DNA of 49,168 nucleotides from a virus, in IMG/VR virus record IMGVR_UViG_3300030107_004118, positions 3,987 to 53,154 of that record; one strand, 5' to 3'. A program made the translations under genes and the position numbers. A model generated the notes under the pieces. The model was not told where the DNA came from, made no database searches, and saw only the letters and a list, made by a program, of their open reading frames with translations. Shown here piece by piece: positions 5,774 through 40,070 of this stretch. Positions within the stretch are counted from its first letter, which is position 1; each line of letters begins with the position of its first letter.

Positions 5774-7030
5774 TTAATACTTTATTAGAAATTCCATAAC
5801 AATGTATGGTGAAACAATATCATCAAACTTATTTACACCAGAAGTACTTATGTTAACAGATGCTTCAAGACCATCTGGTCTCATAGTAGTAACTGCAGTA
5901 GTACAAGTATAATCAGTATCACCTATCTCTCTATCAATAATATGAGAGTGTTGTGTAGCATCAAGTGTGTCTGATCCTGGGGGAACTCCACAGGTTTCTT
6001 CGACATTCCTCGCAGTAGGATATACTGGATCTGCTACCTTATCATTAACAGTATCATATGGTCTTTGTAAACCAACATTTATACCAGGTGTAGGTGCAGT
6101 GTTAGGCCATGATGTTGCTGTAACTACATCACTACCAGATATTGTTTTATCTGGAGTCCAATTACTAGCAGCAATATTTTGAGGTGGATTAGCTGTTGAC
6201 ATCGGGGGTATTAGAGTTAAATTAGCACCATTCTCATGAGAATACCCTAAAAAATGATTTTTGAAAGATGCACAGTTACCACCATTACAAACACCTGGTC
6301 CACTTTTACCATATGTACTACCTAGAACATTCTGCCAATAATGTCTAGCAACTTCATTACACAGTCCACCATAGGTCTCACCAGATTCAGCAGTAAGGTT
6401 AACATCAGCCGCCGACAAATAATATGGTGTAGATCTATTAGGAAACTCAGCACTCTCTTTCACTGCGACTCTAGTACCACCAGAAAAATGCCCATGTGAT
6501 CCTATAGCACCTGCAGGTACTGATGTAGTCTCAGTAGTAGTTGGAAGTGTCCAACCTATTGAACCAATCATATCAAAAGTCTGTGGTGGTATTGTAAATG
6601 CACCATTAAATCCTATGTTAGCAGTGTTACCAACATTAGAAAACATTTCAACACCAACACCTGCTTTCTGTATAGTTGTTGCATTTTCTCCAGTACCAAC
6701 AACCTTATTAATATTTCTATATGATCCTACGTTAGATGATGAAGCAGCTTCTATATGTTTTGATCCTAAATCAGGAACCTGAAACTGAGTTTCAGCAAGA
6801 GCTTGATCAGATTTTTTATACAATGATGTTTCACCAACTCCAAGGATCCTTGCAAGCTCTGGGTAATCTCTCTCATCGTAAACAGAACCATCACATCTCA
6901 AGTAACCTGCTGGTAACTTGTCTATAATCTGTGCGAAATTAGGATCATTATCAGGGATACTAACACCCCAGTTAATAATAGTACCAGGTGCATTACCTAA
7001 CTTAGATCTCTCTTTCTGTAGAAACTTCAT
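5774..7030 (-). CDS. Tail-collar domain fibre protein, 418 residues
   Basis: The N-terminal 80 residues form a tail-collar domain (GTIINWGVSIP, then LPAGYLRCDGSVYDERDYPELARILG and FQVPDLG). HxH motifs occur in GSHGHF and in TQHSHII, in keeping with metal-coordinated trimeric fibre tips. The protein ends with IVMEFLIKY, matching the C-terminal pattern of its two neighbours. Its ATG overlaps the stop of the upstream collar gene by one base (TAATG). It is the middle of three tandem collar-domain paralogues, probably short tail fibres or adhesin subunits. The level of divergence suggests an old duplication or exchange of tips. Confidence 0.85.
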   Translation of the reverse strand: MKFLQKERSKLGNAPGTIINWGVSIPDNDPNFAQIIDKLPAGYLRCDGSVYDERDYPELARILGVGETSLYKKSDQALAETQFQVPDLGSKHIEAASSSNVGSYRNINKVVGTGENATTIQKAGVGVEMFSNVGNTANIGFNGAFTIPPQTFDMIGSIGWTLPTTTETTSVPAGAIGSHGHFSGGTRVAVKESAEFPNRSTPYYLSAADVNLTAESGETYGGLCNEVARHYWQNVLGSTYGKSGPGVCNGGNCASFKNHFLGYSHENGANLTLIPPMSTANPPQNIAASNWTPDKTISGSDVVTATSWPNTAPTPGINVGLQRPYDTVNDKVADPVYPTARNVEETCGVPPGSDTLDATQHSHIIDREIGDTDYTCTTAVTTMRPDGLEASVNISTSGVNKFDDIVSPYIVMEFLIKY

Positions 7031-8592
7031 TAATATGCCCTAATAAGATACATCATACTAATTGCTGGAGTCTTTACATCCACATTAATATTTAGTGCGG
7101 ATGGTAGATTCTGTGGTGCAACTGATGTAGGTTGACCAGACAATGTACTATCAATTTGTATATCATTAACAGCTACAATCGTAGGTGGTTTAAGGAAACC
7201 AGCATTCATTGTAAGCTGGAATGAATAGTGAGTATGAGACTGCTGATTTGAATGATATTCAAGAGCATGATTCAAAGCAACTGGAAATGTTTTAGATGTT
7301 CCTTCATCAGCAGGATTGAATAAATTATTAGCAATATTATCTCCTTCACCCTGATAAGCATACCAGTTCTTACTATTCATATTCGATTCCCTTTCATTAC
7401 AGTTATATGTTGAGTTAACATTACTGTAAGTAGCACCTAAAGGTCTAGGCATAGGACCAGTCCATACTGGTTGTGGGTTGTATGTACCAACACCACCAGT
7501 ATTATTAGGATTGAGTCGTGGTCTACTCATATCAACTATAGTTTGATTTGCAATAAATCTTGTTACCAAAGCAACTCCTTGATTACCACCAACAGTATCA
7601 GGACTACCATCACTAGGTGGTTCTGATGAGACCAACGTCTTTTGCTTAGAATTACCTTCTACATTAGTAATAACCTTTGGACACTGAAAGCTTTCAAAAA
7701 ATCCACCATCATCAAGAACGTATCTATATCCAGTACCTTGGTTACCAATAACAGTAGGATTACCATGTGTATGAGGTGGCATATGATCCTTACTTAACTT
7801 TCTAGGTAAGCTATGGAATGTCTTAAAATAATTTGGTGGGTTTACTGAGAAATTTCTAATCTGTCCAGTTAAACTACTAGAATCTGTAATAGTGAAATTT
7901 ATATCAGAGTTAGCATTATATGATGTACCTGGACTAACACCAGATCCATCACCTTCAATTAATTTATTAGTATTAGTTCCTGTTGGTGTTAAGACATCTG
8001 GTACTGATGGTAGAGTCCAATCTACCTTTAATATTAAGGGGTCTGTTCCTGAAGGAAGTGAGGTAGCAGGTATAGTTATTGAATCACCAGCAGTATATCC
8101 ACCACCAGCATCAACTATCTTAGTTACTCCAGCTCTACCTTGAGCATCTACATCAATAGTTACTTGACAACCAGTTCCACCACTAGGAGAACTTAAAGTA
8201 AAATTATATGTTGAGGCAGTTCTTCCCTCATCTACTTCACCGTTAGTAATAGTCATACCACCAACAGCACCACTCTGATATGTCTGGCCAGCCTGCAATG
8301 CAGCAACACTAACATAATCTTCTTCGTAGTCTGCTAATAATCTAGTATTTAACTGAGGTAAAGCAAACGTATCTCCAGTTATATAATTTGGATATGTCCT
8401 ATTATTAAGACCATTGGTAGGTCCATAAGTATTACCCAAAATAGAAGCCAATACTGGAAAATTCATAGCTTCTAATACTTGACCATTACAAGCTAACCAT
8501 CCTTTTGGTATTGTACCTTGATCTCCCGACCAAGGAAGGATCGTGCCTATTGCCGATCCTCTCATCTTTTTCTCTGCTTCGTACTGTTTCAT
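7030..8592 (-). CDS. Tail-collar domain fibre protein, 520 residues
   Basis: The protein opens with a tail-collar domain (GTILPWSGDQG, IPKGWLACNGQVLEAMNFPV, then FALPQLN) over about 95 residues. A beta-rich middle section (about 105-200) contains a VTKIVDAGGGYTAGDSITIP element, a repeat type common in phage structural proteins. HxH motifs appear in MPPHTHG and QQSHTHY. The C-terminal ISMMYLIRAY resembles the ends of the other two collar proteins. It is the first of the three collar genes, 3 bases after the giant fibre gene, and shares a one-base TAATG junction with the next gene. The likely role is adsorption. Confidence 0.85.
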   Translation of the reverse strand: MKQYEAEKKMRGSAIGTILPWSGDQGTIPKGWLACNGQVLEAMNFPVLASILGNTYGPTNGLNNRTYPNYITGDTFALPQLNTRLLADYEEDYVSVAALQAGQTYQSGAVGGMTITNGEVDEGRTASTYNFTLSSPSGGTGCQVTIDVDAQGRAGVTKIVDAGGGYTAGDSITIPATSLPSGTDPLILKVDWTLPSVPDVLTPTGTNTNKLIEGDGSGVSPGTSYNANSDINFTITDSSSLTGQIRNFSVNPPNYFKTFHSLPRKLSKDHMPPHTHGNPTVIGNQGTGYRYVLDDGGFFESFQCPKVITNVEGNSKQKTLVSSEPPSDGSPDTVGGNQGVALVTRFIANQTIVDMSRPRLNPNNTGGVGTYNPQPVWTGPMPRPLGATYSNVNSTYNCNERESNMNSKNWYAYQGEGDNIANNLFNPADEGTSKTFPVALNHALEYHSNQQSHTHYSFQLTMNAGFLKPPTIVAVNDIQIDSTLSGQPTSVAPQNLPSALNINVDVKTPAISMMYLIRAY

Positions 8593-8595
8593 TGA

Positions 8596-11500
8596 TTATA
8601 ACTCCACGAGCCACCATCCTCTGTAATTGGATGGTATAGTTCCTGTTTCTGTTCCATCTTTTGCTCCAGCGAATACGAACCCAAATCCAGCATTTCTAGT
8701 CTGGACAATCATTTCACCACCACCATATGCACTAGCAAGACCACCAGCAAGTGTTCCAGTAGCATCACCTTGCATTTGTACACCAACTGGTGCACGAACG
8801 ATTAATGATGTAGAGTATGATAGATTACCTCCTAGGTCAATCATTCTAATCATATCACCAGTTTCTGCATCATCTGGTAACGTAAATATTGCTGTAGCAG
8901 CAATAGCAACAAAGTAATTCTTACCAGTTTCAAGTGTTGCGTCAGAAGATTTGAACTCCCAGTTAAGTCCACCATTCTTACCCCAGTATCTATTAACACC
9001 AAATGCATCAATAGCAGCATCCTGACGTATTCTGAATAGTCTATCACTAGCGTTACCAAGACCATTAATTTCTAATGCCTTAGTATTATCTGCTGATGTA
9101 CGTGCCTGAGAAAGACTGTTAATAGTAACTTGACCACCATTAACTGTTAGATCACCAGTACCGATTGCAGATCCAGCAACACCAATGCGTGTATCACCAG
9201 TCTGTGCATCTACATGCAACTTAGCAGTAGAAGCATCACCGAATTGAATTCCAGTAGTACCACTGAATACAGAGAAGTCATCATCTATTTGTAAGTGACC
9301 AGAGATCTCAAGATTACCAGTATCTACCTGCAAGTAAGCAGACATCTTCGCATCGTCAGAAGAACCTACTGTACCATCATTCTGTACTCTTAAGTTACCA
9401 GCTATCCACTGATTACCTCCCTTATCTATGATTGCTTTAGGAGCAGCCTCAGTACCAATACCAACGACTGTGAACTTACCATCACTATCGATAGTTAGTC
9501 TAGTATTAGAAGTTGGTTGACCATTAATAATCCTAAACTGATTATCAGTAGAATTAGTTGATGCATCACCTGTTAGATTAATACTAAAGTCTTGAGTACC
9601 AAGTATAGTAGAATCTACACCACCAAAGACAGAATCAATTACGAAACGATCTTGCTGTGCACCATTATTAACACTAAACTTCTCAGCATTAGTATCATTA
9701 ACAGCAGTAATCCTAACAAATTCACCAGTACATGTAGGTGTATTAGCACCATTTAATCTTAGGTAATCACCAACCTTAAACTGTCCACCAAACTCAGCAA
9801 GTGATACAAGATCAGCACTAAAGTTGAGGATAGCAGATCCAATACTACCTGATATTGGAACAGCACCACCACCAGGAGAAAGAGATAGATTAAATCTCGT
9901 CTTATTATTACCAGTATCATTAACTGCGTTTACAATGAAGTAAGTGTCTGTAGTAGTAACTCCTATAATACTACCAACATTGCTGAACTTAACTGCGTCA
10001 CCTGTTCCTAAGTCATTAAGAGGAACTTCAAGTGTATCCGCATTGTTTACAAGATTAGATAAAGTAGGAGTTGTAGAAGTCTGTGGTACTCTACCAATTA
10101 GGTGAGTAGCAGCATTAGATCTCTCAAGCTTGTATATAACAGCATTATCTGCATGTATTGCTACAGTTGTGCAATCTATACCTCTATTAACTGGAACTAT
10201 CCTTGTATTAGCATCAGGACCAGGTGAGACAACCTCAACCAATTCTGTTCCTATGATAAGGATATCACCAATTGCTATTCCTCTGACGTTATTAACTGGT
10301 AGTCTATTATATTCAGCATCACCTGAATTAGCTGTCCATTGAGTTGTACCAGTACCAGTATCAACTAAGGTATTCTGTAATGTAATACCAGTAGATGTTC
10401 CAGGAGTACCACCAACCTGTACAGGTGATCCACCTTCAGATGTAGCAACCTGGAATGAACTACCAGTACTATTAATAACCCAGTATGGTGTACTTGTACT
10501 AATACCACCACCAGAAAGACCAGTAATATCAGTAAATCTAACTACATTACCATTTAAGAAATAGTTCTCATTTACAGAAATAACTCCATTAGCTGCAACA
10601 CTAGTAATAACTTGGAAACTATCAATATCTTCAACATATTTGTAGAAGTCAACATTGAGGTTTTGTAAACTACCAGGAGCATGAGCTATCTGTGCTGTAT
10701 TGAGTTGTTGTCTATCAACTGTAACAGTTCCACTGTTAGATCCACCATGCATGGTTACATCACCATACATGTCTGTATCACCATTAACTTGTAAAGAGTT
10801 TCTAACCTCTGTAGTACCAGCAACACCACCGATAGCAAACTGTGATGCTCTAGTTGCAAAGTTTACAATAGAACCAGCACCAGCTCTAGTGAATAGATTG
10901 ATAGTCTGTGAATTAGACTGTAGATCACCACCATTAACATCTAAGTCACCATCAAGTATGGTCTGAGCATTCTTAATTGTGAATGTAGAGTTAGCAGTAT
11001 TACTAAACGCACCACCAAATGTAAGTACTGACTTATTTGTAGCACCATCAGCAACAGTACCAACATTGACTGTTGAATCAGTAGATGATGTGTGTATATT
11101 TAATGTTGTATCAGTAGATGATGTACCAACATTGATTGTCTGAGCTGCTGTTGCATCCTCAAAGAGGTTTACAGTAGTCGCAAGACCACCAACATTTAAT
11201 GTGGTTGCATTAGTATCAAGGACATTAAAGGTTGTTGCATTAGTAGTAATACTTCCACCATCAATGTTTACATTACCATCTATGTCTGCGTTAGCAATAT
11301 CATTACCAACACTTACTAAGTGTAATGCATTTGTTTCACCAGATCCTACCTTGATAGTAACTGTAGAATCTAAATCATCATCAGTTGCATTAATACCAAC
11401 TCTTGTTTCTAGAGTAGAAACTCTAAGTGTTGCTAAGTTATCTGATACTATTGAATCTCCACCAACTATCAATGCATCCTTGAGACCAGTCTCAGTCTTA

Positions 11501-14500
11501 GTTGTAGTTGCTTCAGTAGTATAGCTATTGATCGCCTTACCACTAATGAATGTATTACCAACAACATCCAAGTTTGCTCTTGGTTCTTGCTGATTGTAAA
11601 CTGTACCACTAGCAGTGTATGTTAGGAATCCATGCTCATGAGCATTATGAGCAGTACGAGCAATGGTGTTAATACCAAGCTTGTACTTACCAATTGTGCC
11701 TGTTTCAGTTCTAATTGCTTCAGAACCTATTACACCAGTCTCTTTCCAATTCTCATCAGATCTTTCAAGAATAACACTTGACTCAGTAGCCCAAGTAAAT
11801 GTAGTTGTAGGGATGGAATTGTTAACAACAAACTCACAGAACCCATCATCTGCACCTGTTTGATCTGCCTTGGTAATTATCCACTTACCGTTAACACGTG
11901 GATCGGAGAACCCTTTAATAAGGATTGTCTTACCTACACCAATATTAATACCATTATCACCATTAGTAAATGCACCAGACCAATGAAGTTGAACAGTATT
12001 ACTACCGTTAGCCAAAAGCTGAAGAACAGATGTGTTTGGTATTATTGAGTAGTAGTTAGCATATATCCAAGCAAGAGAACCACTCTGCTCAATTGACTTA
12101 CCCTTATAAAGAATATCACCTGCTTGTGCATTAGCATCTACATCAGAAGAATTGTAATATCTTACAAACTGCTCAGGACTAAATGTTGTTGACTGATCAG
12201 GTGTTCTGTTGCTAGGCTCATTCTCACTAAATGAGAAGTTTGTACGTATACTATACTCTTGACCTGGGAATAATCCTGTACCTCGACCTTTTATGTGATA
12301 AACAGCCGTGGAAATTTTATTCCTACTAAGGGTCATATCACCCTTATTTCTATCAGACCAATTACCCCTAGTTAATGTATTATCTTCTCCACCACCATCA
12401 CTTCTTGGGTTAGAAAGAATGGTAAGAGCAGGTGATTCAGTTGGTGGTTGAGTACTAATAATTACTCTGTTATTAAAGTAACCAATACCTTCAACAGTAA
12501 TCTTATCCTTAAATGTAACAGGAGTATCAAATGATGTTACCAGTGTAGTGATAATATCTGTATCATCTTCAGATGACTCAAGTTGAGCTTTCTCTAGGAA
12601 TGTCTCTTCACCAGTGATAGCATCAATCTTCTTGTTACCAATGTATAGGTCACCATTACTGTTAAGACCAGTGTAGAATACAATACCACCATCCTCACGT
12701 TTTGCCTGTGAGTAGTAGTCTTGGAACTCAGAAAGTATAACTTCCTGTCTTGCTGGTAAACCAGATGAATAGTTACCTGGACCAAAACCAAGGTATTCAA
12801 ACGTATGGTTACCAGATCTAGCAATAGATGGTCTTCTTAGTTCAATGTATACCTTCTGATCATGAACAGATTCAGTATCACCAGCAATAGGAATCTGTCT
12901 CTGTTCTGAACCAGCAGTAGCATTACCTGTAACAGCTTGGAGTGTATTACCAGCGTTAGCATAGGTGTATCCACTAAAGTATCCTGACTGAGTTAGATCT
13001 TCAATTGCTTCCTTAGTCATTGACCTCTTATAGTCATTGACCCAGACAAGACCATGTGTATAGTTGTCTGCGAAACTATTAGCAGCAGGTGGATCAGTAA
13101 TTAATGAATCCTTAGTACCATTGTTGTCTATAACCTGATACCATAGAGGATCATTCTTATAGTCTAGTGGATATAGTGAGGAGATAGGCTGAGAGAACTT
13201 AAAGTTCTGGAAGTTAGCACCTACACCAGCACCACGAGGTAGAGGTGAAATGTTACCACGTACAGCAGTTAGATAGTAGATACCATCTTGCTGTCCAGCA
13301 ACACGTTCCTGAATAATATCAGAGTCAAAGATATAGAATGTATCATCAATGTCTTTAACATCTTCAACAGAAACAATCTTATAGGTATTACCAACTGTAT
13401 CATTCAATGTATCACCAGGTGTAACTGTGAATACATTAGAATCACCAACAACATAAAGGTTATTACCTTTACTATCTCTACCACCATTAACATCTGCCTG
13501 TTGATCAGCATAAACAGCACCTTGCTGGAATCTTGTGGCAGTTAATGGATTGTATGTTGGTCTAGCACTTACATCCTTAAGGATGATATAATGCTTAGTA
13601 TCAGCACCTACAACTACCGAGAAGTATGCATGTAGATAACCAAATCCACTGCTACCACCAGTCCACTCTACTATGTTAGTAGGAGCAGATGCAGTCTTAC
13701 TTGTAGCAAATGCACCTGCTTGTGGAGCATTAATCTCTACAGTATGGAATACTGTATTCTTTAAGTTTGGTGCGTTAGTATCGTCAACTGTATGGTCAAA
13801 TACAGTAAGCTCTAGTTTCTTAGAACCTACTGGACCTATCTGCCTAGCAGAACGAATACTGAATCGAATATAGTTATCAGTATTAACAATGCGAGGATGG
13901 TTATCTGGATCATATATGTTCTTAGCGGTTAATGTACCAGCCTGCACTGCTGCATCAAAGTCAACCTTGGACATACCAAGTGTCTCAGTTGAGTTAGCAG
14001 ACTGTGGGTTACGGAAATCAGCGATATCAGGAGATCCACCAACTTTTTCAAGTACTATATTCTGTGGAAGTAGATTACGCTTAGTATCAGTACGGATCTT
14101 CATTACAAATCCGTTGTTTGGTTGCCTTACAGAACCAGGATATTCTTTTGGTTGTACATATCTTAAACGATAGATACGATCATTAGCAACACGATCATCC
14201 TTAAGACGAGTGTAGTAAGAATCTGTTGTCTGTGTCTGACCTGAAGAAGGATCATAATCACTCTCTTGAATCCTAGTGATTATATTATCATCAAGACTAG
14301 TCTCATCCTTAAGATTCAAGTACCACAATCCATCAGGTATTGGTGGAACTCTAGATGCAGCAGTATCAACAAACGTAGGATCAAATCTCATTGGTGATGT
14401 ACGCTTGTTAGCGAAGACATACCAATATTGATCTGGATTATTAACTAAAACTACCTCTGGTGCACCAGCTATAGCATCCTGTGCAGTAGCAAATATCTTA

Positions 14501-17500
14501 AATGTATCTTCTGTTTCATACCTTACATAATACTCTTGGGTAGGAGATACCAGAGCTCCACCACCACCAGAAAGTGTAGGTAATGTAGGAGCAGTACCAC
14601 CATCAGATCCTTCTTTTCTAAAGAAGACTTTCTGTAACTCAGTAGAAGGTATACCATTTGTTGGCTTATCAAATACATGAGCAACCTCTGTCTTGAATAT
14701 AGTACCACTTGATCCATCAAAGGTAACTTTATATTCATGTAGATCATATGCTGAATCTAATACGTACTGTTCGATTAGAATCTCAACATCCTCATCAAGA
14801 GATTCTGTCTCAGGTGAGTAGATGTAAATACCAGCGGCTGCTGCCTCTGCTGACTCAGCAAGCATTAACTTAGTTTGGTCACCACCATCAAATATACCAC
14901 TGTAAACAGCACCATCATTGTAGTTGAATGGTTGTGTGTTACGACCTGGAGCAATTACATAATATTTTCTATTTGGTTGGAACCCAAGTGGTAGACGAAC
15001 GTCTCTCTCATCTGGAGTCTTACCTGCTTTAGCACGAGCAACCAGTCTTACTGGTGTTCCAGTCTCAAACTTATGTGGGTTAGTACCACCAGCATCAACA
15101 GTGAATAGAGTTGCACGTTGAGCAAACTGATCACTAGATGTAGATGGATTTAACCTTGCAATAGAATTTTGTGATGGAGATGTCTTAGTTGTAGCAGCGA
15201 ACTGTCCAGCATTATTAGAGTATGCTGTAACACCATCAGTGGTAGCACTAACAAAGGTATGTGCATAAGCACCACCAACCTGTACACCAAACTGCTTACC
15301 ACGTACAAATGTATGTGCGTAGTTACCACCACTAGCAACAGAAGAACCAAGAGCAGACACAAACAAATGTGCTGTAGTGTTAGAAGAAGTACCAACATCT
15401 ACTGTAATTGTAGTACCTGTTGTTGCTAGTATAGGTAATGATGTATCACTTGCAGGGTCAGTTGTACGTGGATAAGTATGGTTACTACCATGACTATCCT
15501 CTCCACAAGTAAAGGTTAATGAGTTATCAGCAATCTTAACAGACTCACCAGCAAGTGTAATACCATCAGCAACAGCACTTACAAATGTATGTGGATAGTC
15601 ACCACCAGTCTCAACTGCAGCTCTTGTTATGCAATTTGCAGTAGCAGAAACAAATGTATGAGCAGTAGAGTTAGTAGATGGGATGCTAGTTAATACATTA
15701 ATAGTAAATCCATTCTGTGTAACTGAATCAATCTTAACCCACTTACCACTAATAGGATCACTAGGTCTAGGATATACATGGTTAGTACCATTATTATCCT
15801 CCATGCAAGTAAAGGTTAAACTATTATCTGCAATCTTGATGAAGTCACCTGCAGCAAATCCGTGATTAGCAAGAGTAAATGTTATTACACCTGTTTGTGG
15901 ATCATATCCAGCAGCAGTTGGAGTGTAACCAGTATTAGGTACAAATGTATGTGTTGTAGTATTTGTAGATGGTATAGTGGTTAGAACATTAACTGTAATT
16001 GTTGTTGCAGTTACAGCAGTAATGTTTACAGCAGTATCAGATGCTGGATCAGATGATCTTGGATATGAATGTTCACTACCACCACCATCTTGAGCACATG
16101 TAAATGTTAAGGAGTTTGAAGCTAACTTAATAGATGTACCAACAGTCAAACTATGACTACCGATAGTCATCTCCATATCACCTGTTGTTGGGTTGTAATC
16201 AACAGCAGTAGGAATGAAACCAACTAGAGGAGATGTACCAACATTAACATCAAATGTACTGTCTGTTACACCAACAACATTCATCCACTTCTTACTATAT
16301 GGATCTGTTGATCTAGGATATGATTTCTGTGCTGTATTACCATCCATACCACAGCTCATTATCAAGGAATCATCTGCAATTCTTACTCTATCTCCTAGAG
16401 AGAATCCATGATTAGCAACAGTAGTTGTTAAGATACCAGTTACAGGATTGTATGAAGCATCTGTAGCTGTGTGAGTACTTGGTCCACTAAGAGTGTGACT
16501 ACCAATAGTAAGAGTCATCTCACCAGTGGTAGGAGTATAAGTAGCAGCAGTTGGTGTGAAAGTAATCTCTGGTGTTGCACCAACAGCAACAGTTATCTTA
16601 CCAGTCTGTTTCTTAACAGCACCAGCAGATGCTGATACAAAGTTATGAATAGATGTATCTGGTGAAGGTGATACATTAATCAAGAATGTATCATTAGTAG
16701 CAGTAGTAATCTCTAACCACTCTGTTGAAGCTTCGTCAGTTGCTCTAGGATATGTGTGATTACTTGCGTTGTTGTCCTTAGCACATGTAAATGTTAATGA
16801 ATCATTTACAAGCTTAACCATACTACCAACTCTAGTAACAGAGTTGCTACCAGCAGAAACAAACCTATGCTCAGATGTATCAGAAGAAATTCCAATCTGA
16901 ACATCAAATGTATTACCTGTTATATTCTGTATAGGTAGTTTCTTACCTGCAGCAGGGTCAGTTGCTCTAGGATAACTATGATTGGTAGCATGACTATCCT
17001 TAGCACATGTAAATGTAATAGAGTTGTTAGCAAGGATAACACTAGTACCAGCAGCAAACTGATGATTAGCAACAGTAAGAGTTAATATACCTGTAGCTGG
17101 ATCAAAACCAGCATTAGTTGGTGTATGTGTGCTACGTGCTTTAAATCCATGACCAGCAACAGTAAGTACAAGCTCACCGTTTACTGGATTATAATCTGCA
17201 GCAGTCGGTGTATGATCTGTCTCCTCTACATCAGTAACTTCAACCTTAGTGTTGTATACTGGATCAGATGTTCTAGGATATGAGTGCTCAGTTTGGTTAC
17301 CATCTTGTGTACAAGTAAATACTAAAGCATCTTTCTCTAACTGTAATGTATTTCCTTGAGATATATTATGAGCACCAAGACTTAATACTAGATTACCAGT
17401 AGCAGGGTCATATGTAGCATCACTAACATTATGTCCTACAAGCGGTGTTGTACCAACATTGATAGTAACAGTATCAGCAGTTATATTAGTGATATCTCTG

Positions 17501-20500
17501 ATAGCATTCTTATATGCTGGATCTCCTACACGTGGATAAGCATGGTTTGATCCATGATTGTCCATACCACAACTGAATGTTAATCCATTCTGATTAATAC
17601 CAATTTTATTCTGAGCAGATAAACCATGATTAGCCATGGTCAAAGTCAAATCACCAGTAGCACCATCATATGTTGCACCACTAGGTGTATATGTTCCTAA
17701 TGCTTGAGATGTAATTCCAGCAGTATCAATACCATACTCTATTATCTGGAATAGAGTAGCCATTGCTGAAATAACATCAGCACAATATACTGCATTAACA
17801 GGACTAGGATCAGTTGTAATTGATGTATCTTTTGTCTGATTGTAAGATGTAACAACACCTGCTCTAGGACTATAAGTTACATTCTGAATAATTGAATTAG
17901 CAATCTCTTTTGCTTTTCTGAAAGTATAGATTGATTGCTCTTCTTCTCCAGCAAGATCAGCACCTACAACATATAGATTAGCAGCATCCCAAACCTTATT
18001 GTTTGATCCAAACTTAATGTTATATGCAACTGCCTCGATAACATCTACAACGTCATCGTAGCAATTAACATTACCACCTGGAACTGTGTGTTGAGGATAC
18101 TCAATATTCATATCCTTAACTGCTACATCAGCAATGTATTCCTTGTTAGCAAGTAACAAGTCATGTGCATCAGCAAAACGATCACCAACTGGGTTAATAC
18201 CTTGGTTAATGATTGTCTTGATGTTATTCATCAAGGTTGCTATAGCCTGTGCAGTATCATTACACTGAGGGTATACTGTATCCTGAGTAAGATTTGTATC
18301 TACATCACCTTCTATAGATGAGTATACACCTTTACGAACACCATTCTGATCTTCTAATGAGAACCATAGGTTAGCAGATGAATTAGATCCAGTAGCATTT
18401 GTAGCAGCACCATCGAAAGGTGTACTTCTTTGTCCAGCAACAACACTACCAAGCTCAATAGTTGTTGGGTTAACAATACTCTTGATGTAGGTATCAGTAG
18501 GAATATTTGCTGTTGTTAAAGTATTAGGATCAGCAGTTGTATTATTAGCATTAACTCCTGTATATTCCTGAACCTTCATACCAATAACAAGTCCAACAGT
18601 TGTAGGAACTGTTACTAAGGAAGAGTTATTAGAAATAGAACATCCTGTCTGTAAGAATGTCCAGTTACGAATAGATGCAATAGCAAGATCACGAGCATAC
18701 TCAAAACCTTCAATAGTTTCAAACTTCTCGTTATCAATGTAGTTTAATTCACCAGCACTGAAGTATGACTCAGCAGCCTGAATAGTATTGATGTTACCAC
18801 CAAGACGTAAATCAGATATAACAGCATCAAGAACTAATCCAACGTCTCTCTGACACTTACTGATAATGATATTCTTACTGAGAAGAGCTGGATACTTCTT
18901 AGTGATGAATCCATAAGTCTCTTCTTGGATGAGTTCTTTATTCTCCTCTATTCTGTTAGCAGCATCTTGTGACTTATTATCTACAACTACTGTAGTAGGA
19001 TTAAGGATCTGTAACGATGATGGATAGAAATTATAACCAGAAGGTGATAATGTAGCATTATAGATTGCATCAGGTACAGGAGATTTACCAGAAGCAGCAG
19101 AATATGGATCTAACTCAACATATATCTTCTCATTACTCTTAGCACCTATTCTATATCCATTAAGAGTAGCAGCAGGACGCTTCTTAGGATCTGTAACATT
19201 ATCACTACCACCAAAGTAAAGTCTTGTATTAGTATCACGTGATGCCTGTACATCCCACGTATAGTAATCAACTCTATCTTCGTTAGCAGTTGAATCAATT
19301 AATTTTTCTGGTGGTATGATAGAATCAATGTATCCACCTTTGTCCTGTGCAAAGGAATATCCTTTATGTCCCTTAGCATGGAGTGATGTATTACCGAAGT
19401 TACTGTTAGAGTTGGTGATACTCATATCACCACCACTTTCCATTAGGAAGTGATCAGCAAAACCAACAGCGAAGATACTAACACACTGAATGAATGCATC
19501 ATTGATTGCCTTAATGTGGCAGTTTCTCCAATCATCCTTCCAATATGCATCACCCTTAGTGTGATAAGGTACTGTTGCAAATGCATCAGAAAGAGATGCT
19601 TGGTTCCAAGTATTTGTAAACTTATCGTAACGGATGAATGCTCTATCGTCTTTCTGTAGAGATACACCAGTATACTGAGCACAGACCATAGACTTGAAGC
19701 CTGTGACCTTACTACCATCTGCTAATAGACCACAGATACCCCATGTAGACCTGATAGACAGGTTAAACATGTATGGAGAAGCAGATTCAACTGAGTCTAC
19801 TTCTGCCTGTACATAAGCACCATTAGAGAGACCATTAGCAGTAGAATATGTTTGATTATTCTGTAAGTTTAAAGATGTTACAGTACCAGGTAGAGTAAAG
19901 CTAAACCTTCTTCTATTAAGTGGGTCTATACTAGCAACATTAAATGTTCCATTCAATGCTTCATCTAAACCATTATTTTGTACAGCAAAGAACTGGTTCT
20001 TAATATAACCATGAGCAATCTTTGTTGTTACATTAACAGTAATCTCACCTTGTGGAGTCGAATCAACTACCTGTAATGATTCAATAGATCTTAAGTCAGA
20101 TAGAGGACCAACAATACGAGTCTCACTTACATTACCACTAAACTCATTCTGATCATCAATAGTAGGTTGATACTGTGCAAAAGATTGAGCAACCTTCTTA
20201 TAGTAAAGTTCTAGTTCAGGTTTCTCAGCATATTGGAATACAGTAATCTTGTGGTGTGAGTACTCAGGTATAGCAAGGTTAGCATTATCATTCTTACGAT
20301 AATAAACCTTACCAACACCATCAGTAGTATCAAATAAAGGAGACTTAGTAGTAACGTCTCCATCCTTGATTGTAAACTGCCAGATGTAAGCACCACCAGT
20401 TACATTGAAGATAGAAGTTCTACCTTGCTCTTTATCAGCAGGATCAGGCACATATAAAGGACGTATATGTGTTCTACGAAGATCATAACCAATTAAAGAA

Positions 20501-20904
20501 CAGCCACGAGGAACAATACAACCACCCTCAGTACCATTAAACTTGTATAGGACGTTATCAGGATTAGACAGATCCACAACCGAAGAATCTGTCCAAGCAT
20601 TAGTATACTGATCAAATCCAAAAACAGGAGTTCCAGATGTTGAAACTAATCCAGGTCTATTATCAATATAGTGGTCACCAGGCATAAGCATGATGGTGAA
20701 CTCATCAAATCGATCATTATCGATTCCAGGAGCATAAGAATATCTTGCTACCTCGATAAATGCCCTTTGAATGGTTACAAATGGGCGGTTTGGTGAATTA
20801 CCTCTATTGTCTAATTCATCAGAAGCATTGAAATCATCTGGTGAGACATACAAATATCTACCAGTTTTACTGGAGATTAAGTTATCTAATCTTGTTAATG
20901 GCAT
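8596..20904 (-). CDS. Giant tail-fibre/virion structural protein, 4,102 residues
   Basis: One uninterrupted reading frame of 12.3 kb takes a quarter of the window. The N-terminus (RPFVTIQRAFIEVARYSYAP and PGDHYIDNRPG, about 35-90) resembles the head of large cyanophage fibre proteins with beta-helix character. Residues about 1,070-1,900 hold tandem repeats with a TC..D....H.YPR..DP core (separate entry). Residues about 3,130-3,390 have short beta-strand repeats such as ATTLNVGG and TINVGTSSTD, typical of fibre shafts. There is no signal peptide, peptidase or membrane segment. It precedes the three collar proteins, so it probably forms the long fibre that carries or contacts them. The exact role is inferred from context. 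Confidence 0.85.
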   Translation of the reverse strand: MPLTRLDNLISSKTGRYLYVSPDDFNASDELDNRGNSPNRPFVTIQRAFIEVARYSYAPGIDNDRFDEFTIMLMPGDHYIDNRPGLVSTSGTPVFGFDQYTNAWTDSSVVDLSNPDNVLYKFNGTEGGCIVPRGCSLIGYDLRRTHIRPLYVPDPADKEQGRTSIFNVTGGAYIWQFTIKDGDVTTKSPLFDTTDGVGKVYYRKNDNANLAIPEYSHHKITVFQYAEKPELELYYKKVAQSFAQYQPTIDDQNEFSGNVSETRIVGPLSDLRSIESLQVVDSTPQGEITVNVTTKIAHGYIKNQFFAVQNNGLDEALNGTFNVASIDPLNRRRFSFTLPGTVTSLNLQNNQTYSTANGLSNGAYVQAEVDSVESASPYMFNLSIRSTWGICGLLADGSKVTGFKSMVCAQYTGVSLQKDDRAFIRYDKFTNTWNQASLSDAFATVPYHTKGDAYWKDDWRNCHIKAINDAFIQCVSIFAVGFADHFLMESGGDMSITNSNSNFGNTSLHAKGHKGYSFAQDKGGYIDSIIPPEKLIDSTANEDRVDYYTWDVQASRDTNTRLYFGGSDNVTDPKKRPAATLNGYRIGAKSNEKIYVELDPYSAASGKSPVPDAIYNATLSPSGYNFYPSSLQILNPTTVVVDNKSQDAANRIEENKELIQEETYGFITKKYPALLSKNIIISKCQRDVGLVLDAVISDLRLGGNINTIQAAESYFSAGELNYIDNEKFETIEGFEYARDLAIASIRNWTFLQTGCSISNNSSLVTVPTTVGLVIGMKVQEYTGVNANNTTADPNTLTTANIPTDTYIKSIVNPTTIELGSVVAGQRSTPFDGAATNATGSNSSANLWFSLEDQNGVRKGVYSSIEGDVDTNLTQDTVYPQCNDTAQAIATLMNNIKTIINQGINPVGDRFADAHDLLLANKEYIADVAVKDMNIEYPQHTVPGGNVNCYDDVVDVIEAVAYNIKFGSNNKVWDAANLYVVGADLAGEEEQSIYTFRKAKEIANSIIQNVTYSPRAGVVTSYNQTKDTSITTDPSPVNAVYCADVISAMATLFQIIEYGIDTAGITSQALGTYTPSGATYDGATGDLTLTMANHGLSAQNKIGINQNGLTFSCGMDNHGSNHAYPRVGDPAYKNAIRDITNITADTVTINVGTTPLVGHNVSDATYDPATGNLVLSLGAHNISQGNTLQLEKDALVFTCTQDGNQTEHSYPRTSDPVYNTKVEVTDVEETDHTPTAADYNPVNGELVLTVAGHGFKARSTHTPTNAGFDPATGILTLTVANHQFAAGTSVILANNSITFTCAKDSHATNHSYPRATDPAAGKKLPIQNITGNTFDVQIGISSDTSEHRFVSAGSNSVTRVGSMVKLVNDSLTFTCAKDNNASNHTYPRATDEASTEWLEITTATNDTFLINVSPSPDTSIHNFVSASAGAVKKQTGKITVAVGATPEITFTPTAATYTPTTGEMTLTIGSHTLSGPSTHTATDASYNPVTGILTTTVANHGFSLGDRVRIADDSLIMSCGMDGNTAQKSYPRSTDPYSKKWMNVVGVTDSTFDVNVGTSPLVGFIPTAVDYNPTTGDMEMTIGSHSLTVGTSIKLASNSLTFTCAQDGGGSEHSYPRSSDPASDTAVNITAVTATTITVNVLTTIPSTNTTTHTFVPNTGYTPTAAGYDPQTGVITFTLANHGFAAGDFIKIADNSLTFTCMEDNNGTNHVYPRPSDPISGKWVKIDSVTQNGFTINVLTSIPSTNSTAHTFVSATANCITRAAVETGGDYPHTFVSAVADGITLAGESVKIADNSLTFTCGEDSHGSNHTYPRTTDPASDTSLPILATTGTTITVDVGTSSNTTAHLFVSALGSSVASGGNYAHTFVRGKQFGVQVGGAYAHTFVSATTDGVTAYSNNAGQFAATTKTSPSQNSIARLNPSTSSDQFAQRATLFTVDAGGTNPHKFETGTPVRLVARAKAGKTPDERDVRLPLGFQPNRKYYVIAPGRNTQPFNYNDGAVYSGIFDGGDQTKLMLAESAEAAAAGIYIYSPETESLDEDVEILIEQYVLDSAYDLHEYKVTFDGSSGTIFKTEVAHVFDKPTNGIPSTELQKVFFRKEGSDGGTAPTLPTLSGGGGALVSPTQEYYVRYETEDTFKIFATAQDAIAGAPEVVLVNNPDQYWYVFANKRTSPMRFDPTFVDTAASRVPPIPDGLWYLNLKDETSLDDNIITRIQESDYDPSSGQTQTTDSYYTRLKDDRVANDRIYRLRYVQPKEYPGSVRQPNNGFVMKIRTDTKRNLLPQNIVLEKVGGSPDIADFRNPQSANSTETLGMSKVDFDAAVQAGTLTAKNIYDPDNHPRIVNTDNYIRFSIRSARQIGPVGSKKLELTVFDHTVDDTNAPNLKNTVFHTVEINAPQAGAFATSKTASAPTNIVEWTGGSSGFGYLHAYFSVVVGADTKHYIILKDVSARPTYNPLTATRFQQGAVYADQQADVNGGRDSKGNNLYVVGDSNVFTVTPGDTLNDTVGNTYKIVSVEDVKDIDDTFYIFDSDIIQERVAGQQDGIYYLTAVRGNISPLPRGAGVGANFQNFKFSQPISSLYPLDYKNDPLWYQVIDNNGTKDSLITDPPAANSFADNYTHGLVWVNDYKRSMTKEAIEDLTQSGYFSGYTYANAGNTLQAVTGNATAGSEQRQIPIAGDTESVHDQKVYIELRRPSIARSGNHTFEYLGFGPGNYSSGLPARQEVILSEFQDYYSQAKREDGGIVFYTGLNSNGDLYIGNKKIDAITGEETFLEKAQLESSEDDTDIITTLVTSFDTPVTFKDKITVEGIGYFNNRVIISTQPPTESPALTILSNPRSDGGGEDNTLTRGNWSDRNKGDMTLSRNKISTAVYHIKGRGTGLFPGQEYSIRTNFSFSENEPSNRTPDQSTTFSPEQFVRYYNSSDVDANAQAGDILYKGKSIEQSGSLAWIYANYYSIIPNTSVLQLLANGSNTVQLHWSGAFTNGDNGINIGVGKTILIKGFSDPRVNGKWIITKADQTGADDGFCEFVVNNSIPTTTFTWATESSVILERSDENWKETGVIGSEAIRTETGTIGKYKLGINTIARTAHNAHEHGFLTYTASGTVYNQQEPRANLDVVGNTFISGKAINSYTTEATTTKTETGLKDALIVGGDSIVSDNLATLRVSTLETRVGINATDDDLDSTVTIKVGSGETNALHLVSVGNDIANADIDGNVNIDGGSITTNATTFNVLDTNATTLNVGGLATTVNLFEDATAAQTINVGTSSTDTTLNIHTSSTDSTVNVGTVADGATNKSVLTFGGAFSNTANSTFTIKNAQTILDGDLDVNGGDLQSNSQTINLFTRAGAGSIVNFATRASQFAIGGVAGTTEVRNSLQVNGDTDMYGDVTMHGGSNSGTVTVDRQQLNTAQIAHAPGSLQNLNVDFYKYVEDIDSFQVITSVAANGVISVNENYFLNGNVVRFTDITGLSGGGISTSTPYWVINSTGSSFQVATSEGGSPVQVGGTPGTSTGITLQNTLVDTGTGTTQWTANSGDAEYNRLPVNNVRGIAIGDILIIGTELVEVVSPGPDANTRIVPVNRGIDCTTVAIHADNAVIYKLERSNAATHLIGRVPQTSTTPTLSNLVNNADTLEVPLNDLGTGDAVKFSNVGSIIGVTTTDTYFIVNAVNDTGNNKTRFNLSLSPGGGAVPISGSIGSAILNFSADLVSLAEFGGQFKVGDYLRLNGANTPTCTGEFVRITAVNDTNAEKFSVNNGAQQDRFVIDSVFGGVDSTILGTQDFSINLTGDASTNSTDNQFRIINGQPTSNTRLTIDSDGKFTVVGIGTEAAPKAIIDKGGNQWIAGNLRVQNDGTVGSSDDAKMSAYLQVDTGNLEISGHLQIDDDFSVFSGTTGIQFGDASTAKLHVDAQTGDTRIGVAGSAIGTGDLTVNGGQVTINSLSQARTSADNTKALEINGLGNASDRLFRIRQDAAIDAFGVNRYWGKNGGLNWEFKSSDATLETGKNYFVAIAATAIFTLPDDAETGDMIRMIDLGGNLSYSTSLIVRAPVGVQMQGDATGTLAGGLASAYGGGEMIVQTRNAGFGFVFAGAKDGTETGTIPSNYRGWWLVEL
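15210..17700 (-). repeat. Tandem protein repeats in the giant fibre gene
   Basis: In the translated minus strand, about 830 residues repeat a beta-rich unit of roughly 75-140 residues. Each unit reads approximately P-T-x-A-x-Y-x-P-x-T-G, then L-T-x-x-x-x-x-H-x-[FL], then [FS]-[TS]-C-x-x-D, then H-x-YPR-x-x-D-P, then a short T-[IF]-x-[VI]-N-V strand and AHTFVSA. I count eight copies of the TC..D....H.YPR core, near 17,560, 17,260, 16,960, 16,730, 16,300, 16,050, 15,750 and 15,450. One copy has YPRATDE and one has KSYPR instead of HxYPR. The repeats diverge clearly at DNA level, so they are old or under diversifying exchange. Confidence 0.8.
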
Positions 20905-22829: not shown

Positions 22830-22851
22830 AAAAAGGGGGAATCTCACCCCC
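22830..22851 (-). terminator. Rho-independent terminator of the tmRNA unit
   Basis: On the minus strand a five-base GGGGG/CCCCC stem with a seven-base loop (TGAGATT) is followed by TTTTT. It lies directly after the 3' end of the tmRNA coding piece and ends 24 bases before the next ATG. Confidence 0.85.
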
Positions 22852-23105
22852 AATTAGTCATTTGGGTAACAAGGCTGACTTAACCCCGATCACTCCTTAA
22901 ACAGTCGCTAGTTCAGCGATGCGAGTGAATGCTACGATGTTATTCGCAGCAGGTGTATCTGTTTTAGCAGATGTTGTGTGCTTATCCAAGCAGGTTTCAG
23001 TCCCGATCCTTATACCCTGTCGAAGCCATGGCATCCCCTAGCTATGGAGATGAGGGGAGTCGAACCCCTGTCCAGAATGTAGGTGTCGTCACCTATCCTC
23101 AAAAG
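22852..23105 (-). ncRNA. ssrA: Permuted two-piece tmRNA
   Basis: Read on the minus strand, the acceptor piece comes first. It ends with a T arm (AGGGG, TTCGACT, CCCCT) and the acceptor strand CATCTCC plus discriminator A at 23045. Six bases later, at 23038, the coding piece starts GGGGATG, which pairs with CATCTCC over seven bases (one G-U), followed by the tmRNA signature GGCTTCGACAGGG. This 3'-piece-before-5'-piece order is the permuted arrangement known from cyanobacteria. The tag frame is at 22897-22947: GCG resume codon, ANNIVAFTRIAELATV, TAA within a TCGCT/AGCGA hairpin. The 5' end of the acceptor piece (near 23105) and the 3' end of the coding piece are estimates. No CCA is encoded. 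tmRNA rescues stalled ribosomes together with SmpB, which is not in the window. Confidence 0.92.
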
Positions 23106-23109
23106 AGGA

Positions 23110-23181
23110 TGCCATCAGAGGGATTTGAACCCCCGACCTTGGCTTTACAAAAGCCCTGCACTACCACTGTGCTATGATGGC
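23110..23181 (-). tRNA. tRNA-Thr (anticodon UGU)
   Basis: The minus strand folds as a standard tRNA. The acceptor GCCATCA pairs with TGATGGC; the D arm is GCAC-AGTGGTA-GTGC; the anticodon arm GGGCT-TTTGTAA-AGCCA reads TGT at the anticodon (the outermost anticodon-stem pair is a mismatch); the T arm is GGGGG-TTCAAAT-CCCTC. The discriminator is A, and CCA is not encoded. It lies about 5 bases upstream of the tmRNA acceptor piece and is probably co-transcribed with it. Its anticodon reads ACA, a codon favoured in AT-rich phage genes. Confidence 0.95.
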
Positions 23182-26171: not shown

Positions 26172-27325
26172 TATGCATTAATATTGATAACACCAGATGA
26201 GAATAGGGTCATCGCACCTTGAGATGTTAAGTTCAAAGTAGACTGACTACTCAATTGAGTAGCACCTAAACCCATCATATTAAATGTACCATCGGATTTT
26301 ATTAGAGAGTTCACAGTAACAAGCTGACTCCAATCCTTAGTAACTGTGGTCATTAAATCACCACTATAAGTTTCAGTAGCCGTAGTACCATTCTGAGTAA
26401 AGATATGATTACCAGTAATAGTCTGGGTGTTATTACCACCTATGGTCTCTGTGTAGTTTTTACCCACAGTCAAGTCCATCTTACCCTCAGTAAACTCCAT
26501 CTTAGCATCACCTGTCTTTGCTGTCAACTTAAATGAGTGTGGTGCAGGAGTATTAGGCCACTTACCAACACCACCAACATCTACATGCAATCTACCACCA
26601 ACATCAAGTTTCATAGAATCTGTTGATCGTATGTCTATCACTCCCCTAGAGTTGAAGTGCATCGTACCTTTCAGATGATTCTGATGAAGCTCATAGTTAC
26701 TCTCTAATTCATGCTTCCAAGGACCACTTGATTTGATAGCAGCAGTAGCATTGTTCATAGCAAAGTTACCACAGTTCATCTCAAGATTACCTGCACCTTT
26801 ACCAGCTTCAATACTAACCTTCTCACCTGCTAAATGCAATTCCTGATCAGCACTTATCTTAACATTCTTACCATGTATGTTGACAGTATTACCTGTTGAT
26901 TCTATATTAAGCTCTCCACCTATCTTAAGTGATAATGGTTTCTCTTCATTTAATAGATTCTCTATTTCTATCAGAAGTCTACCACCTACCTTAAGCACCA
27001 TATTTCCTTGTGATCTTAATATAATCTGACCACCTTGCTCATCCTCACCTACCTTAGCAGATCCTATAAAAACATTACCAGTCTCATCCATGTATATGGA
27101 CTGACCATTATCAGTTGCTACAAGATAAGTTGCTCTATTCTCATCATTAAGATGCCTCAACTCCTTAGTACCAAGGAGTCTGGTCTTAGCCATTAATGCT
27201 GGATTAGTAGCAGAAGATGGTGCAGTATCTGGTGGTACTGTATACTTACCACCAGTACCATCAGGTAATTCCTGATCTTGTACGTCCTTATCGTATTGTT
27301 CTACTGCCTGTTGTGTTTCACTCAT
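26171..27325 (-). CDS. Baseplate hub needle, gp5 C-terminal beta-helix-like
   Basis: The 384-residue protein is made of short beta-strand repeats with regular V/I-G spacing: NMVLKVGGRLLIEIEN, LSLKIGGELNIES, NTVNIHGKNVKISADQEL, MKLDVGGRLHVDVGG, MDLTVGKNYTETIGGNN. This is the triple-stranded beta-helix of T4 gp5C/VgrG spikes. The ATG at 27325 overlaps the stop of the 951-residue gene as ATGA. Together the two genes seem to be one gp5 cut in two, the first bearing the OB fold. No PAAR-like tip domain is evident. It would form the membrane-piercing needle. Confidence 0.75.
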   Translation of the reverse strand: MSETQQAVEQYDKDVQDQELPDGTGGKYTVPPDTAPSSATNPALMAKTRLLGTKELRHLNDENRATYLVATDNGQSIYMDETGNVFIGSAKVGEDEQGGQIILRSQGNMVLKVGGRLLIEIENLLNEEKPLSLKIGGELNIESTGNTVNIHGKNVKISADQELHLAGEKVSIEAGKGAGNLEMNCGNFAMNNATAAIKSSGPWKHELESNYELHQNHLKGTMHFNSRGVIDIRSTDSMKLDVGGRLHVDVGGVGKWPNTPAPHSFKLTAKTGDAKMEFTEGKMDLTVGKNYTETIGGNNTQTITGNHIFTQNGTTATETYSGDLMTTVTKDWSQLVTVNSLIKSDGTFNMMGLGATQLSSQSTLNLTSQGAMTLFSSGVININA

Positions 27326-30177
27326 GTCGGACAATCCACATATCTACCAGTACCGATCTTCGCATATCCTAACATAGATCTTGTATCACTGTCAAGACAA
27401 CTCATACTTGCTAAAGCTTTAGCACCAAACCCATTTCCACCTATAATCTCAATCTTAGGTGGTGTATCATATACTGCTGTTCTATCTATCACCTCAAAAC
27501 CAATAACAAATCCTTTATCATTAATTTTAGCAACAGCAACTGTTGAATCTCCATCAACATAAACAGTAGGAACACTAGTATAACCTGTACCAGGTCTTAT
27601 AAGAGTTATAGAATCCACAACACAAGAAACTGTATCTGGTTTATAAGGAACATAATTAGTTCCTCTCTGTGTTATTCTAATCTCAGTAACACGACCTTCA
27701 CTATCCAATAAAGGAATACCAATAGCACCATACCCTTGTCCAGTAATTGCTATAGCAGGTGGAAGTATGTATGGATCTCCTGGATCATCTATAGGTATCT
27801 CAATGATCTTACCACCATCATCCACAATAGGTTCTGAAAGTGTAGGTGGTTTGAATCCAGGATCCTCTTCAGGATCTTTCTCAGGTGGTGTAAACTCTGC
27901 TTCTTGTGCTAATATATGAACATGAGATACAGCACCAGTACCATTAATACTCATAGTGAGTAACTCTCTACCTTCAATAGTACTGTCTTGTGCAATACCA
28001 ACAATAATAATAGCTTTGTTATCATAAACCTCAAATGTACTAAAGAAATTACCGCCAACAATATCTTCTTTGGTTATATTAGGACCAAATAATGTCCATC
28101 CCAATATAGTTCCATTAGGAATACCAGCAGATGATACAGTATACGTTATAAATTCTCCTTCCTTATACTCAAGCTTATCAGAAGTGATAGCAATACTTAC
28201 TTCATCGTCAATCAGTACATCAGGTGGCTCTGTATATGGTATTGTAGGATTATCTGGATCTGTTTCACCACCAATGATAGGTGGAATCACTTCAGGTCTA
28301 GTTCCTGGTCCAATAACACCAGGTACATATGGATCAGGATCATCTGGTGGTGGTACTGGTGCTAAACCTATAGTAACTGTAGCTTTCTGATTTATAAATT
28401 CTGCTTCACCCACACCAGTAGAATAATCTATCGTTATAGTAAAATCTTCTGGTGTATCGTTTTCATTATCCATATATGTCAATACACGAATAACTCTTTC
28501 CAATTGATTAGGTCCAAATCCAAGAACACCCTCTACTCTTTGATAATCATCACCTTCAGTAGCAGTACCATCTGCTGACTTATAAGCAATAGAACTAGAA
28601 GCTTGAGTATAACCAGTTCTTTTTACAGTAACCTCTGCTGTCTGCCCTTCAATAACATTAACATCAAATATCTCATACTCAACCTTTCTTTCATTTGTTC
28701 TAGGATCACTATCACCAGGTGGTAATGTACCTGCACCTATATTAGGGTTAGTAGGAGTACCATAAATCAATTCATTCTTACCACCACCAGGAGTAATCTT
28801 AGGAGTACCACCGTATATGATACCACCAGTTATATCAGGTGGAGCAAAAGTTCTAGCATCATCACAAACACTCTGACCATAATCAAGTGGTCCATCCTCT
28901 AGTTTTTCAATAAGTTCATCTAAGTTATCCTTCTTGTCTTTCTTCTTAGGTCTAGTGGAATATGTATCCTCATCACCACACTTAGAATCAAGACCACCAC
29001 ATGAGATACCAAGTATAGACATAATCTTAAACAAAGCCCTCCCAACTACATTCAGAGCACTCCCTGCTATTTTAAGAATCGACTGCAGAGGTCCAAGTAC
29101 ACTGTTAAGTAATCTATTAACAAAAGACATGATCTTGTTAAGGATCGCATTAACAAAAATATCAATCTGACATGTTGCTGCTCTGAATACTTTCATCAAG
29201 TAGTTAAAGATCAACTTAGTAACAAAGTCGATCAACCTTTCAAATATATCCTCAATAGAGCATCCAATCTTAGCAAGCATACCTTGCAACCACATCTGCA
29301 CAGATTCCATGATACCTTGGAAGGGTGCTGTTATCATCTTAACAAGAGCTTCAACACCCTTCTTAAGTGCAGCAATTATCTCACCACGAATCCTTGCTAG
29401 AGAAGCTTTAATAACTCTAAGAATTTTGTTAATATATCCTTGTGCTTTGTTTTTATAACCAACAAGCTCTCCGTTGACCTTATTAATTAAATAATCACCT
29501 ATATTACCACCACTGTCCTGAACCATTCTAAACAGTTCACCCATGATATACTTAATCTCTGATTTAGTCTCTCCACCACACTCTGCCTGTGCTATAGCAA
29601 CAGTAACATTAGAACCATATGGATTTACAGGTGAGTTCTCCTTCTGATGCATAAGATCAGAAGCAGCATATGTTCCTGGATCTCCACCAGCAACTTGACC
29701 AGAAGCTAAGTTCTTATTATTCTCAGCATAATTAACTGCTAGATGTGTATAAGGATTAGTATCTGGATGCCTTTTAGATGTGAATGCTAAACATTTTCCA
29801 GCATCTTCAGACGTTAACTCCTCTGGTGCTGTGGATGCAGCATTAGGTGTCTGACCTAGTGAAGCTAATATTATAGGTTTTTGCTTATCAATATCAGTCC
29901 AGACACCAAATACCCAATCAGCAGGTTCTAAGTTAACAGTAGCACCCTTTCTACCACCAACACCATATGGTGTAGTAAGAGGTAGAGTAGCATGTGCCCA
30001 AGGTAAATCTTCAGTTTTTACACTATCACATGAATGAGTATGAACGCCAAGGATCCTCACCTTAAAACGATTAGACGCTTTAATGGTATCAATCTGCTCT
30101 ACTTGGCCTATCCACCAACTAGCACCATCCTCTCCAATTCTATGGAGAGGCATTCGAGATTGAAAAGCAGGATCCAT
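27322..30177 (-). CDS. Baseplate hub protein, gp5-like OB-fold N-terminus with Calx-beta domain
   Basis: Residues 1-110 match the gp5 OB-fold (WWIGQVEQID, NRFKVRILGVHTH, LPWAHATLPLTTP, ADWVFGVWTD, PIILASLGQ). Residues about 210-400 are amphipathic and hydrophobic helices. Residues about 495-605 form a Calx-beta domain (VIEGQTAEVTVKRTG, GTATEGDDYQ, DFTITID), and about 655-760 a second Ig-like part. The C-terminal 150 residues repeat GYGAIGIP and PGTGYTSVPTVYVDG elements. The T4 gp5 lysozyme domain is missing; a hydrolase instead sits in the tape-measure-like protein. Four-base ATGA overlap with the next gene. Confidence 0.8.
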   Translation of the reverse strand: MDPAFQSRMPLHRIGEDGASWWIGQVEQIDTIKASNRFKVRILGVHTHSCDSVKTEDLPWAHATLPLTTPYGVGGRKGATVNLEPADWVFGVWTDIDKQKPIILASLGQTPNAASTAPEELTSEDAGKCLAFTSKRHPDTNPYTHLAVNYAENNKNLASGQVAGGDPGTYAASDLMHQKENSPVNPYGSNVTVAIAQAECGGETKSEIKYIMGELFRMVQDSGGNIGDYLINKVNGELVGYKNKAQGYINKILRVIKASLARIRGEIIAALKKGVEALVKMITAPFQGIMESVQMWLQGMLAKIGCSIEDIFERLIDFVTKLIFNYLMKVFRAATCQIDIFVNAILNKIMSFVNRLLNSVLGPLQSILKIAGSALNVVGRALFKIMSILGISCGGLDSKCGDEDTYSTRPKKKDKKDNLDELIEKLEDGPLDYGQSVCDDARTFAPPDITGGIIYGGTPKITPGGGKNELIYGTPTNPNIGAGTLPPGDSDPRTNERKVEYEIFDVNVIEGQTAEVTVKRTGYTQASSSIAYKSADGTATEGDDYQRVEGVLGFGPNQLERVIRVLTYMDNENDTPEDFTITIDYSTGVGEAEFINQKATVTIGLAPVPPPDDPDPYVPGVIGPGTRPEVIPPIIGGETDPDNPTIPYTEPPDVLIDDEVSIAITSDKLEYKEGEFITYTVSSAGIPNGTILGWTLFGPNITKEDIVGGNFFSTFEVYDNKAIIIVGIAQDSTIEGRELLTMSINGTGAVSHVHILAQEAEFTPPEKDPEEDPGFKPPTLSEPIVDDGGKIIEIPIDDPGDPYILPPAIAITGQGYGAIGIPLLDSEGRVTEIRITQRGTNYVPYKPDTVSCVVDSITLIRPGTGYTSVPTVYVDGDSTVAVAKINDKGFVIGFEVIDRTAVYDTPPKIEIIGGNGFGAKALASMSCLDSDTRSMLGYAKIGTGRYVDCPT

Positions 30178-40066: not shown

Positions 40067-40070
40067 ATAC

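Follow-up and report, generated by a model that had tools for sequence, protein, structure and literature searches.

The window analysed here is a 49,168-nucleotide stretch of viral DNA, and its largest gene encodes a 4,102-amino-acid protein that is, by its sequence, an ordinary new member of a known family of T4-like cyanophages (cluster GC734, or PHROG 4527, "short tail fiber"). The middle of the protein carries eight copies of a repeat with a cysteine that is never replaced in its divergent relatives. We place at about even chances the reading that this is a giant fibre-like protein in the virion of a marine T4-like cyanophage, whose eight repeats form an exchangeable, length-setting array of rigid small β-barrels with a buried Cys-Pro core.

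Understanding of host-contact proteins is poor in T4-like cyanophages, which abound in the ocean. The repeat defines a modular barrel domain common to two giant virion proteins, and its cysteine poses a clean structural question. Because the number of copies in the fibre differs between near-identical viruses, the cassette also makes fibre length and host contact accessible to testing.

A giant member of a cyanophage fibre family

As the initial annotation had proposed, a single 12.3-kb frame encodes 4,102 residues. It is to be placed on the minus strand, where it runs from ATG to stop with zero internal stops. The gene and its neighbourhood are as follows.

8596..20904, minus strand: coding sequence of the T4-like cyanophage GC734/PHROG 4527 giant tail-fibre-like protein, 4,102 aa
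8599..9078, minus strand: conserved C-terminal 160 residues, which define full-length orthologues
7030..8592, minus strand: neighbouring short-tail-fibre gene, PHROG 4591, in the position of GC735
5774..7030, minus strand: neighbouring collar/virion structural gene, PHROG 4714/31602, in the position of GC736

The PHROG 4527 profile matches residues 92-3429 with 3334 bits. With residues 1-935 as a tblastn query, 458 phage records were matched, all of them named Synechococcus, Prochlorococcus, cyanophage or "Marine," and identity to cyanophage orthologues was 50-57% (tblastn). Bacterial genomes yielded one relative, on a 189-kb contig of a Prochlorococcus single-cell assembly, which we read as phage. 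Gene order is also the same as in S-CAM3, Syn1, ACG-2014e and S-PM2, where GC735 (short tail fibre) and then GC736 (collar) come after the GC734 orthologue; in the window, gp5/tail lysozyme and a tRNA region precede the fibre gene, and short tail fibre and collar genes follow it. Pfam gave no family above cutoff over all 4,102 residues, tail-fibre and collar domains included, and neither NCBIfam nor a PDB sequence search returned anything significant for the whole protein. Gene position and family name suggest that the protein is located in the virion as a fibre.

The initial annotation ranked this gene among the longest known in phages, which is overstated for this group. Fibre orthologues range from about 2,160 to 5,000 aa, and a repeat-bearing protein of phage P-RSM6 reaches 8,573 aa. 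The size of the window protein is not exceptional for its group.

The S-PM2 orthologue, S-PM2d218, is among the genes found mutated in an experiment on host-phage coexistence (PMC9910659). This mutation fits a role of the protein at the host interface and says nothing on the repeats themselves.

The 53-kb virus record that holds the window is probably part of a larger genome. A gp5-like baseplate hub/tail lysozyme gene (27322-30177, minus strand) encodes a product only ~35% identical to that of the nearest isolate; thus, the virus is distant from cultured cyanophages.

RNA elements elsewhere in the window

A cyanobacterial-type tmRNA with a permuted layout resides at 22836-23126 on the minus strand (Rfam RF01851, 136 bits; RF04321 also above threshold; ARAGORN, tmRNA*) and partially overlaps the end of a tRNA-Thr(TGT). 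DNA resembling much of this element is present in Sf-FS3, AG-345-P14, S-CAM1/3 and S-SSM7, either without annotation or labelled "hypothetical protein"; a phage-encoded tmRNA seems to have been overlooked in these genomes. A manA RNA motif (RF01745, 158.8 bits) is found at 39866-40067 on the minus strand, just upstream of the minus-strand ORF 38949-39830.

Eight copies of a Cys/YPR repeat

The regular expression C..D....[HK].YPR..D matches the protein eight times, always within residues 1112-1816, at successive spacings of 86, 102, 74, 144, 85, 97 and 100 aa. It had zero matches in 2,000 shuffled versions of the protein. The eight cores are as follows.

17521..17577, minus strand: repeat core 1, residues 1110-1128
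17263..17319, minus strand: repeat core 2, residues 1196-1214
16957..17013, minus strand: repeat core 3, residues 1298-1316
16735..16791, minus strand: repeat core 4, residues 1372-1390
16303..16359, minus strand: repeat core 5, residues 1516-1534, with Lys replacing His
16048..16104, minus strand: repeat core 6, residues 1601-1619
15757..15813, minus strand: repeat core 7, residues 1698-1716
15457..15513, minus strand: repeat core 8, residues 1798-1816

These matches confirm eight mid-protein repeats within the range of about residues 1,070-1,900 that was originally proposed. The proposed core, TC..D....H.YPR..DP, is present in all eight copies only in relaxed form: TC occurs in six (SC in the other two) and DP in seven (DE in copy 4). 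Similarly, Cys, Asp, His and Arg had been described as present in every copy; Cys is indeed strictly kept, but His is replaced by Lys in copy 5 (GNTAQKSYPR). Pairwise identity among the copies is 33-57% over 42 residues. Outside the repeat block, a sliding profile comparison revealed no additional Cys-bearing unit in the protein.

Predicted fold of the repeat unit

One unit was modelled, and a second region of the protein was found to be of the same fold class.

15619..15933, minus strand: modelled repeat unit, residues 1658-1762, all-β, mean pLDDT 95.1
19795..20103, minus strand: motif-less β-barrel of the repeat's fold class, residues 268-370; phi92 endosialidase (4hiz) Z 9.7, E1 FCCH Z 9.3

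When the predicted unit was compared with solved structures by Foldseek, no match had an E value below 1e-3. The top matches were phi92 and K1F-type endosialidases and the FCCH domain of E1, with the endosialidase barrel at E 5.3e-3 and TM 0.47. A second structural aligner matched the unit to residues 257-338 of 4hiz (Z 7.8, rmsd 2.2, 77 aligned) and to E1 (Z up to 7.6 over 74 residues); all Z values of the repeat unit are under 8, which the aligner's own notes call "middling," and the matches to solved folds are weak. When compared with predicted viral structures, the unit aligned with giant proteins of cyanophages (TM up to 0.98), among them the "baseplate wedge initiator" of S-SSM7.

Sequence profiles were compared with 56 aligned repeat units. 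PF12195 matches three of the 56 (best E 0.019) and PF16190 (E1_FCCH) two (best E 0.0038), in both cases below the gathering threshold, and the whole protein matches neither. These sub-threshold profiles and the structure comparison agree on fold class, without proving membership in PF12195 or PF16190. The model thus suggests that the repeat unit is a small β-barrel resembling the endosialidase β-barrel and E1 FCCH, elaborated by the Cys/YPR hairpin. The only match in a PDB profile search with the 56 units was to carbonic anhydrase (marginal E of 0.004 over 40 residues), and this was taken as chance.

The motif-less barrel at residues 268-370, near the N-terminus, is closer to the endosialidase and E1 barrels than the repeats are. 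Its pLDDT is 75-92; the model of the N-terminal 650 residues, with a mean pLDDT of 49, is otherwise poor. A β-helix is suspected, from sequence, within these 650 residues.

The barrel variant lies outside the Pfam and NCBIfam models searched, and PHROGs already cluster proteins that contain the repeat. No publication describing the repeat was found in the open-access literature searched, which is not proof of absence.

That the nearest solved folds are endosialidase barrels raises the main alternative to a length-setting array, namely that the repeats are lectin-like barrels that bind host surface polysaccharide as a multivalent glycan-binding array. The β-barrel of K1F endosialidase carries a polysialic-acid (sialic-acid) binding site that is a hotspot of host discrimination (PMC12632334), and the mutation of S-PM2d218 during coexistence with a host points in the same direction. 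However, fold similarity does not show function, and most orthologues are without any copy. Moreover, the motif is unchanged between Synechococcus and Prochlorococcus phages, unlike a specificity pocket. We regard glycan binding as rather unlikely.

Conservation and couplings of the motif

Sequence collections were searched for relatives with a consensus query. A repeat profile was then built with its seven motif columns masked, which lessens circularity, although the training copies all contained Cys. On the collected loci this profile found 1,875 copies; 460 of them share less than 70% identity with one another.

Among these divergent copies, Cys is present in 460 of 460, Pro in 98%, Tyr and Arg each in 95%, Asp37 in 90% and Asp24 in 85%; the His position has His in 71% and Lys in 21%. 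In 440 of the 460, the core contains a single Cys. Cys is also present in 98 of 98 copies with Lys and in 69 of 69 copies that have a residue other than Asp at position 24. Because Cys stays in every residue class, its role is independent of the His-Asp pair.

Couplings between positions 18 and 31 and between 20 and 29 indicate an antiparallel hairpin, consistent with the predicted strands. In this register, Leu17, Phe19, Cys21, His30 and Tyr32 form a conserved face, and the opposite face is variable. Couplings and strand register together suggest that Cys presumably points into the barrel interior. His30 is coupled to Asp24, and the change from His to Lys accompanies loss of Asp24 (Fisher p 2e-10, uncorrected for relatedness, the Lys/non-Asp copies coming from 17 loci). 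Divergent copies show joint replacement of Arg34 and Asp37, by Glu-His or by Gln-His.

The initial annotation had contrasted these repeats with a generic β-spiral, and that contrast is well founded: the unit forms a domain of its own, in which one site is strictly kept. It had also named, as a contrary outcome, an ordinary described fibre domain lacking a conserved site; the barrel does resemble a described tailspike barrel, but the conserved site is present.

Cys, Asp24 and His30 are close to the tip of one predicted hairpin, and Asp24 and His30 are coupled, an arrangement that could mean a metal site in each hairpin, as was initially hinted. The candidate ligands are not conserved together, however, with His being Lys in 21% of copies, Asp24 gone in about 15% and Cys never lost; copy 5 of the window protein itself has Lys. 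Because Cys persists when His or Asp is lost, a metal site formed by Cys, Asp and His is highly improbable.

The other original suggestion was an intersubunit lock. With one invariant Cys per unit and no intradomain partner in the single-Cys cores, disulfides between subunits or formed after lysis, or a crosslink of another kind, could toughen the fibre. A phage tail with a network of disulfides is known from phage Milano (PMC10811340). Against such a covalent lock, the coupling pattern suggests an inward Cys, on the conserved and presumably interior face, and the cysteines in each trimer layer, being odd in number, cannot all pair. The repeat is also present in gp7-like baseplate proteins. 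The T4 counterpart, gp7, is not a trimer, which argues weakly in the same direction. We consider such crosslinks unlikely.

Absolute invariance of a cysteine is nevertheless rare from packing alone, because one would sometimes expect Ala, Ser or Val in its place, and this counts against a merely buried Cys-Pro core. A long-shot reading is that the invariant Cys is chemically active and provides a covalent or redox lock in each bead, for example through a post-lysis crosslink in oxygenated seawater that would switch the fibre from flexible to rigid. If a Cys-centred lock were true, the repeat would be of a class without known counterpart.

An accessory cassette of variable copy number

Comparison of orthologues, at the level of sequence, shows that the repeat block is an accessory and copy-variable cassette.

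15247..17778, minus strand: accessory repeat cassette, residues 1043-1886, absent from the about 80% identical orthologue L141

Both ends are present in 72 orthologues, the window protein among them. No copy is detectable in 55 of these, and the copy number of the remaining ones is 2, 3 or 8-11; 29 copies occur in a truncated homologue that is at least 6,287 aa long. Orthologue L141 is 82% identical over its first 650 residues and is missing residues 1043-1886. Apart from short realigned stretches, it lacks the repeat block and nothing else sizeable. Contigs L005 and L006 encode proteins with ~96% identity to the window protein plus a 214-aa insertion with additional copies. These extra copies are only about 40% identical to neighbouring copies; thus, the insertion is not a fresh tandem duplication, and the likelier origin is exchange or differential loss.

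Accessory repeats of variable number, with one repeat type in two different giant proteins, could also reflect neutral or selfish proliferation, in which recombination spreads repeats among giant structural genes with no selected role here. However, Cys, Pro, Tyr, Arg and Asp are so strictly conserved across copies that purifying selection must act, at least on folding, and we hold this reading to be doubtful.

If the repeats are instead a length-setting array, each bead would be an endosialidase-β-barrel/FCCH-like barrel with the motif on its β3-β4 hairpin. The hairpin would contribute an invariant Cys-Pro core that is buried, together with one Arg-Asp pair and one Asp-His (or Asp-Lys) pair, and these contacts may stiffen each bead with no need for a cofactor. 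Recombination that adds or removes beads between the conserved ends would then change the reach of the fibre, and fibre length may in turn matter for host contact.

Comparison with known systems

The window protein is homologous over nearly its full length to the GC734 members S-PM2d218, Syn1_032, S-CAM3 gp237 and ACG-2014e gp028, which likewise lie upstream of the short tail fibre (GC735) and collar (GC736) genes. They differ in the repeat cassette, with no copy in Syn1 or S-CAM3, two in ACG-2014e and eight in the window protein.

The endosialidase β-barrel (PF12195; 4hiz, 1v0e, 3ju4) and the repeat unit have a similar small-barrel arrangement (Z 6.9-7.8 over 76-80 residues), but identity is only 13-17% and the profile matches fall below the Pfam cutoff. 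The E1 FCCH domain (PF16190) is also alike in barrel arrangement (Z up to 7.6; best member E 0.0038), but it too is below the Pfam cutoff, and its enzyme context is inapplicable to the repeat.

The Cys/YPR repeat is found as well in gp7-like baseplate wedge initiators of cyanophages, such as PHM2_086 of P-HM2 and the 8,573-aa CPXG_00128 of P-RSM6, which have 6-18 copies. In P-RSM6, this open frame (73-25794 of locus L044) is in the gp7 position, contains 18 repeat units and is annotated only as a hypothetical protein. The gp7-like proteins differ from the fibre in their N-terminus and gene position, being encoded after gp6 and, in P-HM2, between gp6 and gp8.
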